Origin: Theobroma cacao
Taxonomy: Eukaryota; Streptophyta; Magnoliopsida; Malvales; Malvaceae
Length of the DNA: 64,000 bases
NCBI RefSeq assembly: GCF_000208745.1
Contig: NC_030852.1
Span: 58,902-122,901 of the forward strand
Direction: 5' to 3'
The notes beneath the pieces were generated by a model, which was not told the DNA's origin, ran no database searches, and worked only from the letters and a program-made list of their open reading frames with translations. This document shows positions 1 to 62,896 of the stretch, piece by piece. The position numbers and the translations under genes are program-made. Numbering within the stretch: the first letter of the stretch is position 1; every line of letters begins with the position of its first letter.

Positions 1-40
1 GGCACGGTAACTCAATTATATACTTACCTCCAGGGGGAGA
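1..40 (+). mobile_element. 3' internal end and polypurine tract of a Gypsy-type retroelement
   Basis: A purine run (CAGGGGGAGA, 31-40) directly precedes a TG-starting LTR, the usual junction of the internal region with a 3' LTR. The coding part of the element lies outside the window. No ORF can be assigned here. Confidence 0.6.
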
Positions 41-903
41 TGTTGGGTGAAGTATCTCCTGAGGTATGATTTGAGTGCACCTCACGTTCAGACCACCATG
101 TGAGAGTGAGACTCAGCCAACGCCAAGGAACGGCTGTGTGTCAGATGTGAAAACATGTTTATGGGTATGGGTCATTGAACAGCTTTGGCGGTCTCAGTGG
201 GATACCTTGACGAAGGTACCCGCGAGAATGATTCTGGCAGGGGCCAAGTTTAAGAAACTCATAAGCTAGGGAAATTTTGATGAAAAGAAATTGTTTGGTA
301 TAGATCGAAACGAATTTTACGTTATGAACATTATTGAAATATAACATTTTTTTTTATATTGTCTCCATCTACTTGGCTTTAGATACTTTTGATGGTAATT
401 GTTTACTTACTAGGATTATGTAATCATAATCTCACCCCTCTTCCTATCCATTTTGTAGGTTCAGGATAATTTGTTGATAGTTGATTAAGACGAGAATTAA
501 TCTCGGAGTTGCATCCTAAAAAGTAAGGGTTCGTAGCCCTACATCTTCTTAGTCAGTTGGGGGCCCACGTGTCACTGTAAAAGTAATTTTATTCTTCAGT
601 TATTTGATTTAAAGTATGTATGAATATATTTAGCTTTTACACCATGTTTTTGACGAGTTTCGGTATTTTTAAAGAAAAATGACGAAAATGCCCCTGTGAG
701 CCAGAAAGTATTTTTTATTGTTTTGATTTGGAAATGACTTATGATTTTCTTGAAATGTGAGATTTAATAACTGTTGCTCACTAGGGAGATGCGGACGCTG
801 ATGCTAAGCCTTGCGGGGTTTCGATCGGCATTTAGGGTAATGAGTGCCTATCGGGACGTCGCGACGGTTGTCACGGGCTCGATGGGAGTTTCGAGTCGTG
901 ACA
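41..903 (+). mobile_element. 3' LTR of a Gypsy-type retrotransposon
   Basis: The segment starts with TGTTGGGTGA right after the polypurine tract and ends with CGTGACA, giving the TG...CA ends of an LTR about 863 bp long. The last part contains TGTCACG followed by CGTGACA, an inverted pair that can form a hairpin. No second LTR is visible, so the target duplication cannot be tested. The LTR stops exactly where the GTGACAC repeat array begins, which suggests insertion into that array. Superfamily assignment rests on LTR style only. Confidence 0.6.
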
Positions 904-1150
904 ATTGTGGGGTGATACGGCATGCCCTAATTGTGGTGACACACTGAGTGGAAGTAGATACTTGGCGTGACACGCTGAGTGCATGCAGATTTCGGTGGTG
1001 ACATGCTGATTTCTTGCAGTATTGTGGGGTGACACAGCATGCCCCAATTGTGGTGACACGCTGAGTGGAAGTAGATACTTGGCGTCACATGCTAACTTGT
1101 TCCAGTTTTTAGGGGTGACACGCCATGCCCCAATAGGGTGACACATCACG
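904..1150 (+). repeat. Left array of GTGACACGC-type motifs (117-bp unit)
   Basis: A unit beginning ATTGTGGGGTGA starts at 904 and again at 1021, and a shorter third copy starts near 1108. GTGACAC or close variants occur about eight times, nearly all in the forward orientation; one CGTCACATG near 1080 is altered. The fullest form reads GTGACACGCCATGCCCC near 1117. The motif recurs inverted at 5690-6115. Confidence 0.8.
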
Positions 1151-1409
1151 TGGTTGCAGTATTAATTTAAAGGCACTGTGTTTGAATTAAGAAAGAAAAA
1201 GTAATGTATAAAATGTAGGAATATTAAAATTAATAAAATTAATTGTATATACGAAAAAAATGTACAAACAAGGGCCGATATGTTTAGGGTTCACTCTCAC
1301 AACTGTTGAAAAAAATTTCTAGAGCGTATTGGGGATGCATATTTGCAATCATATTTTACTTAACTTTGATCGATTATGATTGCAAAATATCGTCAATGTA
1401 CCCTATCAT

Positions 1410-4400
1410 GAACATACCGCAGCTGACACTATCATTCTACCGATACACTTTAGCTTTTGACAAATGAATTTCCAATGGCATCGGTGTCAAATCTCGTGTC
1501 TTTCGATGTGTTTTGTTGAAATAACCGGCTTGGTGGCAGATGATTGGCATAATTGAGCCGCACACACTCCGTTATCTTTAGCATCCGAAGTTCTTACGGA
1601 GTCCACCACCTTGATCATCCACCTCACCAAGTTGATCTTCGCTACCACCCAATGCCCACCCACATTGCAAGGCGAGAGGATGAAATCGACATCTTCCCAT
1701 TTTTTGCCGTATGTCGGCTTCTCACCCTCCACGTACCCCCGTAACTCATCTAAAATTTCCATAGTCGACCGGGCATCTTTAGTTGGAAATGTGGTGTGTA
1801 GCATATGGATAGTGTCTTGTGAAGCATGTATACATTAGCGTACACTTAATGTAATAAAAAACTTAGTATTTTCATAATTGAAAAATTTTCAAATAAACTT
1901 ACGAAAAATATCGTGTCAACCACGCATGCACGGGTAGTGTACAGCTTTGACTTCGGCCTTGTCATCCGCTTACAAAGTACACTGAGGCATGCGTCTATAT
2001 GTTCACTAGTCATTTCTTCTTTGGGTTCCTCTAATGTTGTGAAAAAGTCAGCCCCTTGATCCCTTAATATCCTAACGTTATGCCTGTATATGTAACAGAA
2101 TGAGTTCGAAAAGCCTTGGTGGATTAATGTTTAATTAAAAAACAAGATTTGCAATGTTGTTTATGAGCTTACCTCGTGCACTCATCTTTCTTGAAAGCTT
2201 TGTACACTTCAACCGTTGTGCTCTTTACATCCTAACGGGTCAATGAGGGGTCGATGTACGGGCCTGCCCTGTATTTGCTTGCCATTTTCAGCCGTGCCCG
2301 CTCAGTTGGGTTTGAAATTTGTGCTGCACGATGATGGACATCAGATGACTCTGGTGACGACAACCGTGACCCGTTGGCTTCAAGAGTGCTCTGAGGAAGA
2401 TGGTCCCCTCTTGCTGCTGCCTTGACTAATGCATCGACTTGAGAAAAATGTTCTCTTTCAGCCACGACTGAGTGAAGGTCCCCCTCCCCTCTCGCAGATG
2501 CATCGATAACCGAATCGACCTAAGGAATAGGGTCTCCTTCAGCATCATATAATTGAAGGGTCACATCCCTTGCCACAGCATCATCCGGATCGGCCTCAGG
2601 AACAAGGTCTCGATCAGCACTAACAACGTCATCATGAATGTGAACACCAGGTTCATCATGCTGCACATCATCAACATTATCGTGGTCCTCACAAGCATTG
2701 TGAGATGAAGGACGCCCTTACAAAATGACACAAGTGGGAAAATTTGTTAGCTCATAAAATACCACGAACCATAAACCAAGAACAAAAAATAAAACTACAC
2801 CTACTAAACGTAAATGACCAATATATGAGCAAAGTTAGAATAACGTACTTGTGATTTCAAGCGGTCTAGAATCCAAAAAACGACACGGTCCTCAAACTTC
2901 TACATCGTTAGAGTCAATGACTGAATTGAAGCCTTCAGCTCAAACATGTCTTTTTTATATCAGTGCATGATCCGTCGCAACTAAAGCTTCGTGACAACTC
3001 TGTCATTGACTTTTGTCGAATGGGTCAACTTCAATAACATATATTACTGTATTATTCAATAATCATATATGGAATTGTTGAACATTACCCGTTGAAACTT
3101 TAACATCCTTACCAGCGGCTCGTTACCACTATGCAGACGAGCAGGACCGATCGGTGGTTGAGGAGCTGTCATCGCCTCCCTCAACTATAATAACAGAAAT
3201 TACTATGTTACTTGATAAACATATGTGGAAATGTTGGACACAAATCGTTAAAACCGATCTTATCGACGGGTCGTTAGCACTGTGCGTCTAAGGAAGACCT
3301 CTCAGTGGTTGAGGAGTTGTCGTCACATGGTCCAACTACAAATATAGATATGTTATTCAATAATCACATATGGAATTGTTGAACATAAACCGTTAGAACC
3401 GTCTTTACTAGCTCTTCACTGCCATTGCCATGGTAATCACCTTCCTCCATCAACTTGGGGACCAATAGCTCATCGACGATAGTAGCGGCGATGCGCCTCG
3501 GCTTCATGGCACTAGTGGCTCTTTTGTGCTTCAAGTTTCTCCTTTTTTCCCTCGCACCTAAGCCCTAGTCCACTCGATTCTCCATGTGCCGTATTAGCAT
3601 GTATTGGTGGCCTTCAAATAACGGGACATCGATGTCCGCAAAATAATCCCAACTGGCCTCATCAGGGGTGGGCTCCAAGGTCTCCATTGCCCATAACTAC
3701 AAAATAGGGATTGTGATTAAATTTTAGGGAAAATTATTATACAAATTTACAGTAGAAATTAGTAGCTGTTCACTCAACTGTTAAGATGACTCCAACATCT
3801 CAACTGCCTTATAGAAGTTTGTTGGCTTCTGGTTGTATTACCATCTGCACATGCGTGGGTAGACGTTGTCTTTCGAAGTAGATGGGGCAACTATCTTTCG
3901 CAAGGTCAGAATTGCTTCCATTGCCCAAAATTGTAAGTCAAATGTAACCATTATTAGATTATAAATAATAAACGATTGCAACCATAAATTATTATGTCTA
4001 AAAGAAATGAAAAATATTACGTGACAGTACCTATATCATCCACGCGAATCCATAAATGTTGTACCGTAAACGATTCTTCTGCACGTTCGAGGCAAGCACT
4101 TTGAACCCCTTCGAAAGGTAGTCCAAGGTCAGCCTTCAAACATAGTGACCCCATGAGAAGACATTCCAAGCGTCGATGTCCTCCACCAATAACAAGAGCC
4201 AAGGCATTACCCGTCTACAATAGTCTTAACCAAATAAAATGTTATTCGCGATCAAGATGAGTGCCACCTTAGTCGCGTCTCCTGGTCATTGAAAGTTGCC
4301 TTCGCAGAACGTATCAAGTAATGCTTGCAGCTTAATGCTATGCTGCCCATTCTACTATCGCGCATGAATTTTATCTGTAATAACCTCGTATCGTCGTGTG

Positions 4401-4720
4401 AACACATCGGGCATTCGACCAAACTTTAGTCAGGTGATAAGGTAGAACTTCTACTTTGATATGCTCGCCTTGCTTTTGTCGATGGCAAACCATAGCTCAT
4501 GCTCCATTGAATCTATCACAGTGATTTGACGAATCATGATGTTATGCAGGAGACCAATGGAGAAGTAGCCTTATGGATATACGTCTAGTAGCATTTCGAA
4601 GCACGTACGTTTCACTGCATCGTACTCCCCATTTTTTTGGAGAGTTTTGTTGATGTAATGCAGTTGCGACCACTTATAATGGGTGTTAATAGTGACATTG
4701 AACGCCCACTTCTCCCTCAG
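1410..4720 (-). pseudogene. Broken DUF1985-Ulp1 (C48 protease-like) transposon gene
   Basis: Read on the minus strand, 4720-4020 translates (with stops) as a DUF1985 domain: RTCFEMLLDVYP, then LLHNIMIRQI, then HELWFAI, VFTRRYEVITDKI, LLLVEDIDAWNVFSWG and YNIYGFAW. A linker near 2240-2300 reads ASKYRAGPYIDP. The Ulp1 domain begins at about 2110 with SEHIDACLSVLCKRM and VVDTIFF, followed by a GTAAGT donor at 1902-1897 and an intron to about 1850. It continues at 1804-1487 with GGHWVVAKINL and VVDS, which supply the His and Asp. The Cys motif SCGMFMIGYIDDIL (Cys codon 1421-1419) is out of frame behind a TGA at about 1487 and an in-frame TAG. Several stops also break DUF1985, so no active protein is expected. 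The family is a cysteine protease of the SUMO-protease fold found in plant DNA transposons; the role in transposition is inference. Confidence 0.75.
1850..1903 (-). other. Probable intron of the Ulp1 pseudogene
   Basis: On the minus strand the Ulp1 reading frame runs through VVDTIFF and meets a GTAAGT donor at 1902-1897. The following coding block resumes by about 1848 with the residues before MLHTTFP. The acceptor is not certain. Confidence 0.5.
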
Positions 4721-4799
4721 CACAATAATTAAACTGTCAAGATTTTCATATTGTCTAGACTGTATCTGTAAAACATGGCACACATGCACGAGTGAGTTA

Positions 4800-5070
4800 A
4801 CCCATAATGTTGTAACACACCATGCATATAACATAAAATATTGTAACACGCCATGCATATAACGTATAATGTTGTAACACGCCATGCATATAACGTAAAA
4901 TTTTGTAGCACACAATGCATATAACGTAAAATGTTGTAACACGCCATGCATATAATGTAAAATATTGTAACATACCATGCGTATAACATAAAATGTTGTA
5001 ACACGCCATGCATATAACGTAAAATGTTGTAACACGCCATGCGTATAACGTAAAATGTTGTAACATGCCA
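4800..5070. repeat. 31-bp minisatellite, about 8.5 copies
   Basis: The unit TTGTAACACGCCATGCATAT plus AACGTAAAATG is repeated head to tail with few changes. Because 31 is not a multiple of three, the same peptide-like pattern appears in all three minus frames, which explains the overlapping ORFs here; they are not genes. The array lies just upstream of the DUF1985-Ulp1 gene start. Its core ACACGCCATGC is also found in the left array near 1120. Confidence 0.9.
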
Positions 5071-5073
5071 TCG

Positions 5074-5215
5074 CTGACACGCCAATCACTATAATTACTA
5101 TGTCTTTAAGCAAACTGGCCTAAAATACCCATGGCGTGTGACATGCCAATCAGTGTAATTACTGACTCGTTGCACGAACTGCCCTAAAATAACCAATCTC
5201 GTGACATGCTAAAAA
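5074..5215. repeat. Two copies of a ~67-bp repeat with GACACGCCAATCA core
   Basis: The text from the ACACGCCAATCACT block near 5077 recurs as ACATGCCAATCAGTGT near 5142. Both copies are followed by TAATTACT and then by CTAAAATA, and a further CGTGACATGC occurs near 5200. The core resembles the motif of the flanking arrays. Confidence 0.6.
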
Positions 5216-5689
5216 CCCCAAAAAAAAGTTAACCCACTACACGCCATATCTGTTATAGTTTAAAACTTTGGTACAATCATAAAACCGGGTAGAAAAATAG
5301 TTTCAACATAACAATTAAAAAAGATTGAAAAAACACGAACATATCACACAAACCTAGCAAAAAATTAATGAACAGAAGAAAGTTTTAAAAGTTTTTTTTT
5401 CAGATTGACTGACCTCTTCACTGATAATCGACATTGTTGCTGTGGTGTCGTCAAGCTTGCAAAAAACAAAGTCGAACACTCTGGTACCTTTGGGAATGAG
5501 GAATGAATCAAATCAAACTATCTGAGTTCCTTCACACAGACGTTTACGATTTTTGGAAAATATTTCAGTAAAATGAAATGGCCTCGCAATTTCCTCTATA
5601 AATATTCATTTATTCATTGAATTCATTCAATGGGAGTCCAATCGGTTTCCTCGTTATTTGCCCACTTTTTTTTCTTTTTTCAAACCATG

Positions 5690-6115
5690 TCGTGTCACCT
5701 ATAAATTACAACACCCTGTCACACACTTTAAACCCTGTCGTGTCATGGATCTCCATGGAGTCTGACAAATTCTGAACCCTGCCGTGTCACAAATTCCCTC
5801 CATGGCATGTCACGAACTCTAAACACTAGCATATCACAGATTTCTTCCATGGCGTGTCAGAAACTCTAAACCCTGCCATGTCACAGATTCCCTCCATGGT
5901 GTGTCGCAAACTCTAAACCCTACCGTGTCACAGATTCCCTGCATGCCGTGTCACAAATTCTGAACGCTGGAGTGTCACGGATTCCCTCTATGGCGTGTCA
6001 CAAACTTTAAACCCTGCCATGTCACAATGTGTCACACATTCCCACCATGTTGTGTCACACATTTCCAACATGCTATTTCACAAACTCTAAACCCTTCCTG
6101 CCACAACCGTGTCAT
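5690..6115 (-). repeat. Right array of CGTGTCAC motifs (46-47-bp unit)
   Basis: Units alternate between CGTGTCACAAACTCTAAACC and CGTGTCACAGATTCCCTCCA and repeat about every 46-47 bp. CGTGTCAC or one-base variants occur about 15 times, almost all in one orientation, which is the reverse complement of the 904-1150 motif. CATGGCGTGTCA is the reverse complement of TGACACGCCATG in the left array. The array lies outside the gene. Confidence 0.85.
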
Positions 6116-7458
6116 ATATGGCCTACTGTAGCACGACCATTTCATGCTTTGGATTCACATCTTTCTCCTTTCGATTCACCACCGTATTAGGGATTTCTGG
6201 TTTCACATCATTCTCCAAGCTTTCGATTCATCACAACCGATTCCTTATTCGGTTTAATATCACTCTTCTCCTATTATCTGAATGTCATGTTAAAAAATCT
6301 GAAAAACCATCTCATGCAACATTATTTTGTTTTGCACAAGCTTCGCGAAAAAAAAAATGGATGTTTTGCACAAAATTAGATGTTCGCAAATTCTTTGCAT
6401 ATTTATTTTCTCATTTTTCGCCTATTTGAAAGTACGCGTCAACGAAGATGGCTCATTAAGGGCATTTTTGTCCTAAAATTTATTCTCGTGGCTAAAAACA
6501 GTTAAAATTATCTACAAACTTAATTTCAAAAACACGTTATTTTTAAAGGCTAAAAAAAAATTCCCCGTTTATTTATATGATACCTTTATTTATTTTCACA
6601 CTTAGAGGAATTTGAGTTGGAAGGCACACCCGTTGAAGAAGCCCCCCTTGAAAAAGGCCAAGCCCTTAGGAAAAAACTCGCCCATAAAAAAGCACATCCT
6701 TAATAATAAAAACCTTTCCTAAAAGCCCTTATAAATATCCCTTAATTTTAAAAGCCTTAATAATAAAAATCTTCCTTAAATTCCTTTAATAAAATCCCTT
6801 ATAGATATGCCCTAATAATAAAAGCCTTTAATAGAATCCCTTAATAAAAATCCATTTATAGATTTTATTAATTTTTTAATTTCTTAAACGTTTAAATTTT
6901 TCTAAAATTATTAAGGATTAGTTCCATACATTTAGTTTCATCAAAAAAAATTTCCAATATTCTTTGTTTTTGTATTTTCTTTTATGTTTAAGTTCGTAGT
7001 TTTCTTCTTAGAGCACAAGAATTTCCTTTTTGGGCAGGCCTTTTCCTATGGGCGGTTTAGTTATAAGGGCGGGACTTTTCTAGGAGCCTTTCCTTGAGAT
7101 CATTTTCTTAAGGGCCTTTCCTTACACATGTTAGAAAGTTAAACTCTTAACTATCATATAACAAAAAGTATAAGAAATTGTTAAAATTGTTATGAAATAA
7201 AGTAGATTTAAAAAAGTTAGAAATGAACAATTAAAAGGAATCCAGGTAAATAAAATAAAAAATCCCTAAAATTTTAAGAAATTAATTTTTTTTTTTTAAA
7301 TCTAAACAAAAAGAATTAAGAAATTAAAAAAATTAAAACAAATTAAAAAAAAAGAAATTTTATAAAATTTAAAAAATAAAAAATTCAAAAAATTTAAATA
7401 TTTAAAAATTTAAACAATTTAAAAAAATTTAAAAATTTAAAAAACTAATAAAAACCCA
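6116..7458. other. Gene-free AT-rich spacer with degenerate repeats
   Basis: No coding signal was found. The stretch 6640-6860 repeats variants of AAGCCTTAATAATAAAA and ATCCCTTATAAAT. Near 6640-6700 (AAGCCCTTAGGAAAA, CTCGCCCAT) and near 7030-7120 (ATGGGCGG, AAGGGCCTTTCC) there are imperfect inverted segments that may be arms of an old foldback element. The stretch 7270-7445 is nearly pure A/T. Confidence 0.5.
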
Positions 7459-62017: not shown

Positions 62018-62896
62018 TGTCACGAGCTTGGAACTTTAGCCAAGTTCTATGCGACATTGAAGTCTCATGTTCGTAAGATTAAGCAAGCCTAAATGAGGTT
62101 TCTTGATGTTTGATACGGAAATGTAAAGTAAATAAATATGAAGAAAGAGACTGAGGAGAATAAATAAGTATTATTACTCCAATGAGAGAAAAACAAAGTA
62201 CTTAAGATCTAAGCACAAAGTAAATTGCTTGATGAAAAGAAAAGTCTACCTGCGGTGGCTATTTATAGCCTCTAACCTACTTAGGGTGCAAGTAAAATAA
62301 AATAAGAAAATATCTAACTTAGGTTTCCTTGGTATGCAAGTAAAGTAAACTTATAACTAAAGAAATAATATTCCCTAGCTTGGTGAGCAAGTATCCAACC
62401 TTAACTTTAGCCTAAGGAGTACGACTCCCATGTAGCCCGTGTGGCTCCTCCAAACTGCTTCTACCCTTAGTGCTCAGGAACAGTTGTGCTGGTTCGACAG
62501 TGGTGCACCCTGCGTGTGCACGGCCTACAGGTGCACTGGGTACAGCCTGTTAATTCACCAAGGATGCGCTTATGCGTGGCTGCCCTAGCCGAAAGCCTAA
62601 ATTTTAAGCACTAAGGTTTTCCTGGTGCACAGCACACATGCAGCCCAATGTGTGAGGGCATAACCCGCTAGTGCGATATGCACAGCCCAACAGCGCATGC
62701 GGCTCGCTAGTGCCCAGGCAGCTTGCGCACAGCCTACACATGCGTGGGCCTTGCGTGTTAGTCAGGGGCGTTGTGGCGCGAAGCGCCTAGAGACATGTCC
62801 CGCTATGTGCGCATTGAGAACCCCTCGTCTGCATGCTGGTCCGATGGTTGGTTGGGGTTGGACTCACATGCCGTGTCATTAGGCACATGGCAAACA
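62018..62896 (-). mobile_element. 5' LTR of the minus-strand Gypsy (GC-rich interior)
   Basis: The plus strand runs TGTCACGAGCTTGG to GGCAAACA, an LTR of about 879 bp. The part 62440-62830 is far richer in GC than its surroundings, with many ACAGCC, GTGCAC and TGCGC words. The left border is firm from the primer site; the right border is inferred from TG...CA ends. Confidence 0.6.

Follow-up and report, generated by a model that had tools for sequence, protein, structure and literature searches.

The window analysed here is a stretch of 64,000 nucleotides from Theobroma cacao (C3:58902–122901), and its positions 1–6566 are the decayed right half of a Mutator-like element (MULE) with degenerate ends and two convergent genes. 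One is a DUF1985-Ulp1 gene (1383–5434, minus strand) and the other is a MULE transposase gene. Arrays of a short word, TGACACGCCATG, and its variants lie in the non-coding parts of the element (Table 1). Based on fuller copies and neighbouring stretches, the order from the DUF side is terminal region, upstream array, DUF1985-Ulp1 gene, central array, convergent transposase gene, terminal array, and the other end. In fuller copies the DUF1985-Ulp1 gene has arrays in intron 1 and often in a second intron too.

Table 1. Features of the element, in window positions unless a locus is named
Feature	Position	Strand	Remarks
Right part of insertion	1–904	+	Read as LTR-type from TG...CA ends alone
Right half of central array	905–1150		86/117-bp units; TGACACGCTGAGTG variants; TRF array 904–1144
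Ulp1 (Peptidase_C48) exons	1383–2085	-	One frameshift near 1500; 1.9e-7 on one piece
Variable middle exons	2184–3900	-	tblastn to P0001: 2184–2399 and 3412–3900
DUF1985 exon	4034–4768	-	8 in-frame stops; 70% to P0001, E 4e-103
31-bp minisatellite in intron 1, AATGTTGTAACACGCCATGCATATAACGTAA	4806–5071	+	TRF, 8.6 copies; motif antisense to gene
Putative first exon MSIISEE	5414–5434	-	GAG/GTCAGT donor; predicted from sequence
Upstream array	5686–6115	-	23/24/47-bp steps; TRF 47-bp unit at 5717–6026
DUF-side terminal region	6116–6566	-	Element start at about 6566 with GGGGAATTTTTTTTTAGCC (minus strand)
Type-D array, PMD gene and MULE-like end	L015 4505–7354 (C1:9138504–9141353)

The copy in the window is about 10.7 kb long, insertion extra, and spans from about C3:52004 (in stretch L009) to window 6566. 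The boundary is placed there because homology between copies stops at this point. Its central array is split by an insertion that measures about 2.8 kb and is read as being of the long terminal repeat (LTR) type. The insertion is flanked by ACTGT in L009 and ATTGT at window 905–909, with four of five letters alike. The second half of the split array is at about L009 7549–8021, and further left are another array and the transposase gene (L009 3854–6000 by tblastn; the piece 5614–6000 matches PF00872, 1.3e-6). In L010, the MULE transposase domain PF10551 is found at 3899–4309 (6.9e-21) and DBD_Tnp_Mut PF03108 at 3137–3520 (7.5e-12). A first-pass annotation of the window had drawn the element at 904–6566; its right bound coincides with the end of homology, whereas its left part, 904–1150, is the central array cut by the insertion.

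The ends of the element are GGGGAATTTTTTTTAGCC on the DUF side and about GAGGAAATTGTGAG on the transposase side. Identical 9-bp target-site duplications (TSDs) are seen by eye in two of three elements checked, TTTCAAAAA for L025/L026 and TATTTTATA for L020/L021, within the 8–11 bp of the MULE superfamily. Alignment of the two 200-bp ends of three elements gives scores of 22, 32, and 27, against shuffled means of 18–19. Since two of the three scores are above all 200 shuffles, the terminal inverted repeat (TIR) is likely short and degenerate, not long. Absent or degenerate TIRs are characteristic of the VANDAL-type (non-TIR) elements, to which this element is assigned by its ends.

The 31-bp minisatellite, which had been placed in front of the gene, sits in intron 1, between the putative first exon and the DUF1985 exon. 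To judge from the sequence, the 3' end of intron 1 would be near 4766, at TTTTACAG. In the Ulp1 exons, GGHW, VVDS, and the stop-NDSVSCG neighbourhood, which we take to have catalytic roles in Ulp1, are legible. The read-through translation of the window matches the profiles of DUF1985 (3.7e-9) and C48 (9.3e-11), and its match to PMD (2.4e-4) is under the cut-off of that family. The closest relative, P0001, is covered at full length with 55% identity and contains both DUF1985 and C48 domains. The 15 proteins that the read-through retrieved all come from Theobroma cacao, in a search that scored only the 7,997 candidates sharing most words. Of 35 relatives, 29 carry DUF1985. AlphaFold models of the 35 relatives have a mean pLDDT (predicted local distance difference test) of 47, with block means of 33–64 over the DUF1985 stretch. 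The genome (here the assembly of 324.9 Mb in 431 contigs, used for all genome-wide searches) contains 431 candidate DUF1985 loci; 150 were scored, all above the cut-off, and 25 of these, counted from their list, have no stop inside the domain. The copy in the window is dead and would at best be a target.

Within the window, TGACACGCCATG with up to two mismatches occurs at 22 places, 21 of them at 913–6057. Shuffled controls give a mean of 1.57 and a maximum of 4, and none of 100 reaches 22. Exact CACGCCATG occurs 8 times against a shuffled mean of 0.06. A lone TGACACGGCATG at 62867–62878 is remote from the element and within chance expectation. Together with the three arrays found by Tandem Repeats Finder (TRF), these counts bear out the arrays seen at 904–6115 in the first-pass annotation. 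All nine sites of the upstream array (5686–6057) are on the minus strand, that is, in gene-sense orientation, and the central-array sites at 913–1127 are three plus and one minus (up to two mismatches).

The word is frequent in the genome and is tied to the gene. Exact TGACACGCCATG (type A) has 1,631 genome sites (833 + 798 on the two strands), against 1 (1 + 0) for the reversed-word control. A second word, GTCACGCAATG (type B), has 1,563 (802 + 761) against 8 (1 + 7), and a further word, GTTACACGTCATG (type D), has 569 against 5. To see the link from the side of the gene, 28 DUF1985 loci were taken with the motif ignored: the eight best-scoring (L029–L036) and one in seven of the 150 scored loci, starting at rank 10 (L037–L056). 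All 28 contain motif sites: 15 are type A (TGACACGCCATG), 12 are type B (AGTCACGCAATG), and one is type C. The best eight comprise six A and two B; the systematic 20 comprise nine A, ten B, and one C. The sole type-C locus, L044, has only two clear sites, both CTACACGCCATG. From the side of the motif, the 100 sites listed on C1, among the 1,631 in the genome, group into 20 places, and 16 of these, with 92 of the sites, contain DUF1985 or Ulp1 remains. The other four (L015, L016, and single sites at C1:457345 and C1:8451451) are in or beside type-D arrays. Relatives of the gene lacking arrays, or a generic satellite spread without the gene, would have spoken against a self-recognition system; neither is seen in these samples.

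The motif type also follows the protein. A DUF1985 tree was made with 40 rows: the 28 sampled loci, the window, and 11 C1 loci fetched for motif A. Motif type matches the clades exactly, with the minimum of two changes; shuffling gives 11.4 on average, and none of 200 shuffles comes as low. Motif changes co-vary with the protein. Type A forms a clade of 27 rows (97/95) and type B one of 12 rows (100/100); L044 and L027 are long branches whose placement is unsure. Between the A and B exons for DUF1985, 21 columns differ, each at least 85% fixed per clade, and 78 are fixed alike. In up to 2.25 kb upstream, or the part of it fetched, the exact B core is absent from type-A loci and the exact A core from type-B loci. 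In type-A elements the A word is found at the upstream, intron, mid, central, and terminal positions. The type-B element at C1:15317146 has an upstream array of 12 sites and, 9.1 kb downstream, an array of 8 sites, all B with no A (up to two mismatches), as well as two exact B sites at the intron-1 place (B search only). A transposase beside its downstream array is not confirmed, the best match having E 0.63.

Sites for the array consensus were chosen within two mismatches from the 12-mer, whose 12 columns are thus set by the search. The contexts of 275 upstream and 206 intron-1 sites share TTG just before the 12-mer, giving TTGTGACACGCCATG, and their flanks agree at 6 of 25 other columns, which is the chance level. 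Of the 275 upstream sites, 269 have T at position 1 of the 12-mer, 273 have A at position 3, and 268 have C at position 9, against 170 for the consensus letter at position 8. At positions 1, 3, and 9, type B carries A, T, and A instead. The CpG at positions 6–7 decays (C to T in 37 and G to A in 23 of 275 upstream sites), and CpG depletion shows no contrast between arrays and the rest (observed/expected 0.78–0.84). Five loci contain 66 sites with up to one mismatch, whereas 200 scrambled words give 0.01 on average. At the same threshold, the coding matches (tblastn) of ten loci, 23.6 kb, contain no site and the remaining 39.2 kb contain 184; the motif was the reason for fetching at least eight of these ten loci.

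Polarity was counted in gene orientation in 27 type-A loci (up to two mismatches), with a line at 750 bp standing for exon 1. At distances above 750 bp from the DUF1985 exon, on its upstream side, 276 sites are sense and 4 antisense, all four in L025. Within 750 bp (intron 1), 6 are sense and 207 antisense. The mid intron has 0 sense and 44 antisense (5 of 11 loci checked are without a site), the central array 5 and 38, and the transposase-side end 28 and 6. Along the type-A element the sites run sense ahead of the gene, turn antisense within the introns and in the gene–gene interval, and are sense again at the transposase end. The first-pass annotation described opposite orientations at the two sides of the element; the internal arrays are indeed reversed, whereas the terminal arrays of complete copies mostly have the same direction. 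In type B, all 91 sites in 12 loci are antisense, 90 of them within intron 1. The element at C1:15317146 has 8 of 8 sense sites downstream, and 8 sense and 4 antisense upstream. A helical-turn rule for the arrays fits the 31-bp intron array alone and was rejected.

These arrays are probably the cognate sites of the element's own VANC-type DUF1985-Ulp1 protein, which would lift the silencing of its own family. The first-pass annotation had suggested binding sites for an element-encoded protein, and the linkage to the gene and the co-variation lend support to this. Self-recognition is well supported by comparison across copies, from which we infer binding. The joint switching of separate arrays seems to fit linkage alone less well. 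The DUF1985 part would bind TTGTGACACGCCATG-like words, and dense arrays at the promoter, in introns, between genes, and at the ends would recruit the protein to its own family only. The bound protein would remove silencing, upon which the transposase and the VANC-like gene would be expressed, and Ulp1 may act on SUMO-modified silencing factors.

Several points weigh against this interpretation. The clade match is also expected without function because motif and gene are inherited together, and for the same reason the co-variation amounts to two switches, not forty independent tests. Since the search itself sets the 12 core columns of the array consensus, differences could arise in the flanks only. 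Ten type-B loci read 2.2 kb upstream have only one B site outside intron 1, and the upstream B array is known from one element alone. Only the 31-bp spacing of type-A intron 1 is a multiple of the helical turn; the spacings of 47 and 23/24 bp upstream and of 23/22 bp in type B are not. The window copy has no mid-intron site (checked among the 11 loci), and a matching TSD was looked for and not found. The 59 type-D clusters on C1 include few near a scored DUF1985 or PMD locus.

It is quite unlikely that the arrays are recognition sites for the transposase instead of the DUF1985 protein. The 12-bp subterminal repeats of maize En/Spm are sites for TnpA, and an element whose TIRs are at best short and degenerate needs some recognition of its ends. 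The mostly uniform direction of the transposase-side arrays (28 sense versus 6 antisense) would suit this. However, arrays are also in the introns and the gene–gene interval, kilobases from the ends, and dense ones sit at the DUF1985 promoter and in intron 1.

Improbable, too, is that the arrays are neutral minisatellites, grown by slippage and carried along by the element, with the common word reflecting shared descent. The structure is tandem, the clade match follows from linkage, the intron-1 and mid-intron units are plainly copies of one another, and the upstream array is missing from most type-B loci. Yet the upstream, intron, terminal, and central units flank the same word differently, polarity is strict, and coding regions are depleted. 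The type-B changes hit positions 1, 3, and 9, among the best-kept in type A. A host DNA-binding protein that drives element transcription could use a dense array upstream of the gene, and CACG in the motif core is part of several plant factor sites, but this is very improbable with two families in one genome having different words that track the encoded protein, and with arrays also within introns and between genes.

The type-D word leads to another accessory gene. In L015, a type-D array of 26 sites (up to two mismatches), all sense, lies about 200 bp upstream of a PMD gene, and the element end is related (83% over 60 bp). PMD may stand in for DUF1985 in this lineage, but with a single locus this is a lead and not a finding. 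It is also conceivable, though unlikely, that PMD proteins form a second, unrecognised class of the same device, given that this related word sits ahead of a PMD gene that has a MULE-like end. On C1, two of nine PMD loci have a type-D site no more than 10 kb away (0.29 expected at random, p 0.03), a weak link, and the type-D clusters there are possibly non-autonomous elements. Homology between DUF1985 and PMD was rejected, as only 2 of 35 relatives match PMD, weakly. Ikeda 2017 speculated on an anti-silencing role of MULE-captured PMD (PMC5418596), and PMD and/or DUF is given for half of the VANDAL group (PMC6446971). As in cacao, the accessory gene in PMD-bearing MULEs is often antisense to the transposase (PMC6446971), but it is PMD and not the DUF1985 of the window element.

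Some cacao gene models seem to contain arrays. In P0001, P0002, and P0006 the N-terminus is upstream array read as protein (E to 5e-5), and the translated minisatellite is inside P0003, P0011, and P0012 (E to 5e-15); the reversed-protein control gives nothing below 0.05. These stretches are probably wrong exons. The DUF1985-Ulp1 models P0011 and P0014 seem to extend into two distinct RNA-dependent RNA polymerase pieces, based on a precomputed PF05183 for P0011 and on reading only for P0014. Dipteronia also has DUF1985 proteins (P0027, P0028, P0030, P0032–P0036, P0038, and P0039), six of the ten with C48.

VANC proteins of Arabidopsis contain DUF1985 and bind short, dense, same-orientation words in their own introns and upstream regions (PMC5735166). 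VANDAL21 (Hiun) and VANDAL6 resemble the cacao elements as MULEs with degenerate TIRs and a DUF1985 protein (PMC5735166, PMC10398659), with dense oriented tandem motifs in introns and upstream, and with words that differ between related families. A captured Ulp1 is present in some VANC genes, which act on their own families, according to a 2026 review citing Sasaki 2022 (PMC13317346). The first-pass annotation had set DUF1985-Ulp1 apart from VANC, and since DUF1985 is part of VANC proteins, this contrast is dropped (PMC5735166, PMC13317346). KIU/Kaonashi is likewise a MULE with DUF1985 and Ulp1, and the review attributes the finding of motif-specific hypomethylation to Sasaki 2022 (PMC13317346). 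The cacao elements differ from it in motifs and copy number, and share the C48 domain in the same gene, both in the window read-through and in P0001. The Arabidopsis VANC words YAGTATTAY and AGTTGTCC/AC lack a CpG, whereas one is present, within ACG or TCACG, in all four cacao types (A, B, C, and D). The cacao gene also has Ulp1, and its polarity flips from promoter to intron.

With a DUF1985 protein encoded by the element and dense, oriented, family-specific non-coding arrays, the cacao layout is the anatomy of VANC anti-silencing in VANDAL elements, and is probably a further, unusually clear VANC-type case. Sasaki 2022 reportedly deals with DUF1985, DUF287, and Ulp1 in eudicots, where the determinants would be the sequence, the density, and the helical periodicity of the motif, and may already cover cacao. 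By titles and abstract openings, the papers found on cacao MULE/Ulp1 and on VANC with DUF1985 does not treat these arrays.

The polarity flip at exon 1 and the CpG in every cacao motif type may be new, as may the type-D array ahead of the PMD gene in L015. It can be speculated from the first two, though it is unlikely, that binding is methylation-sensitive and directional and that the arrays are a switch with memory, in which the protein would read the methylation of its own sites and spread to the promoter, with PMD maybe a second such class. An open question about VANC is how one protein covers kilobases of its own transposon yet switches targets. Cacao has two large sister families in one genome, with words differing at three positions that are nearly invariant in type A. 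These families make the specificity residues, the polarity, and the CpG-sensitivity testable outside Brassicaceae.

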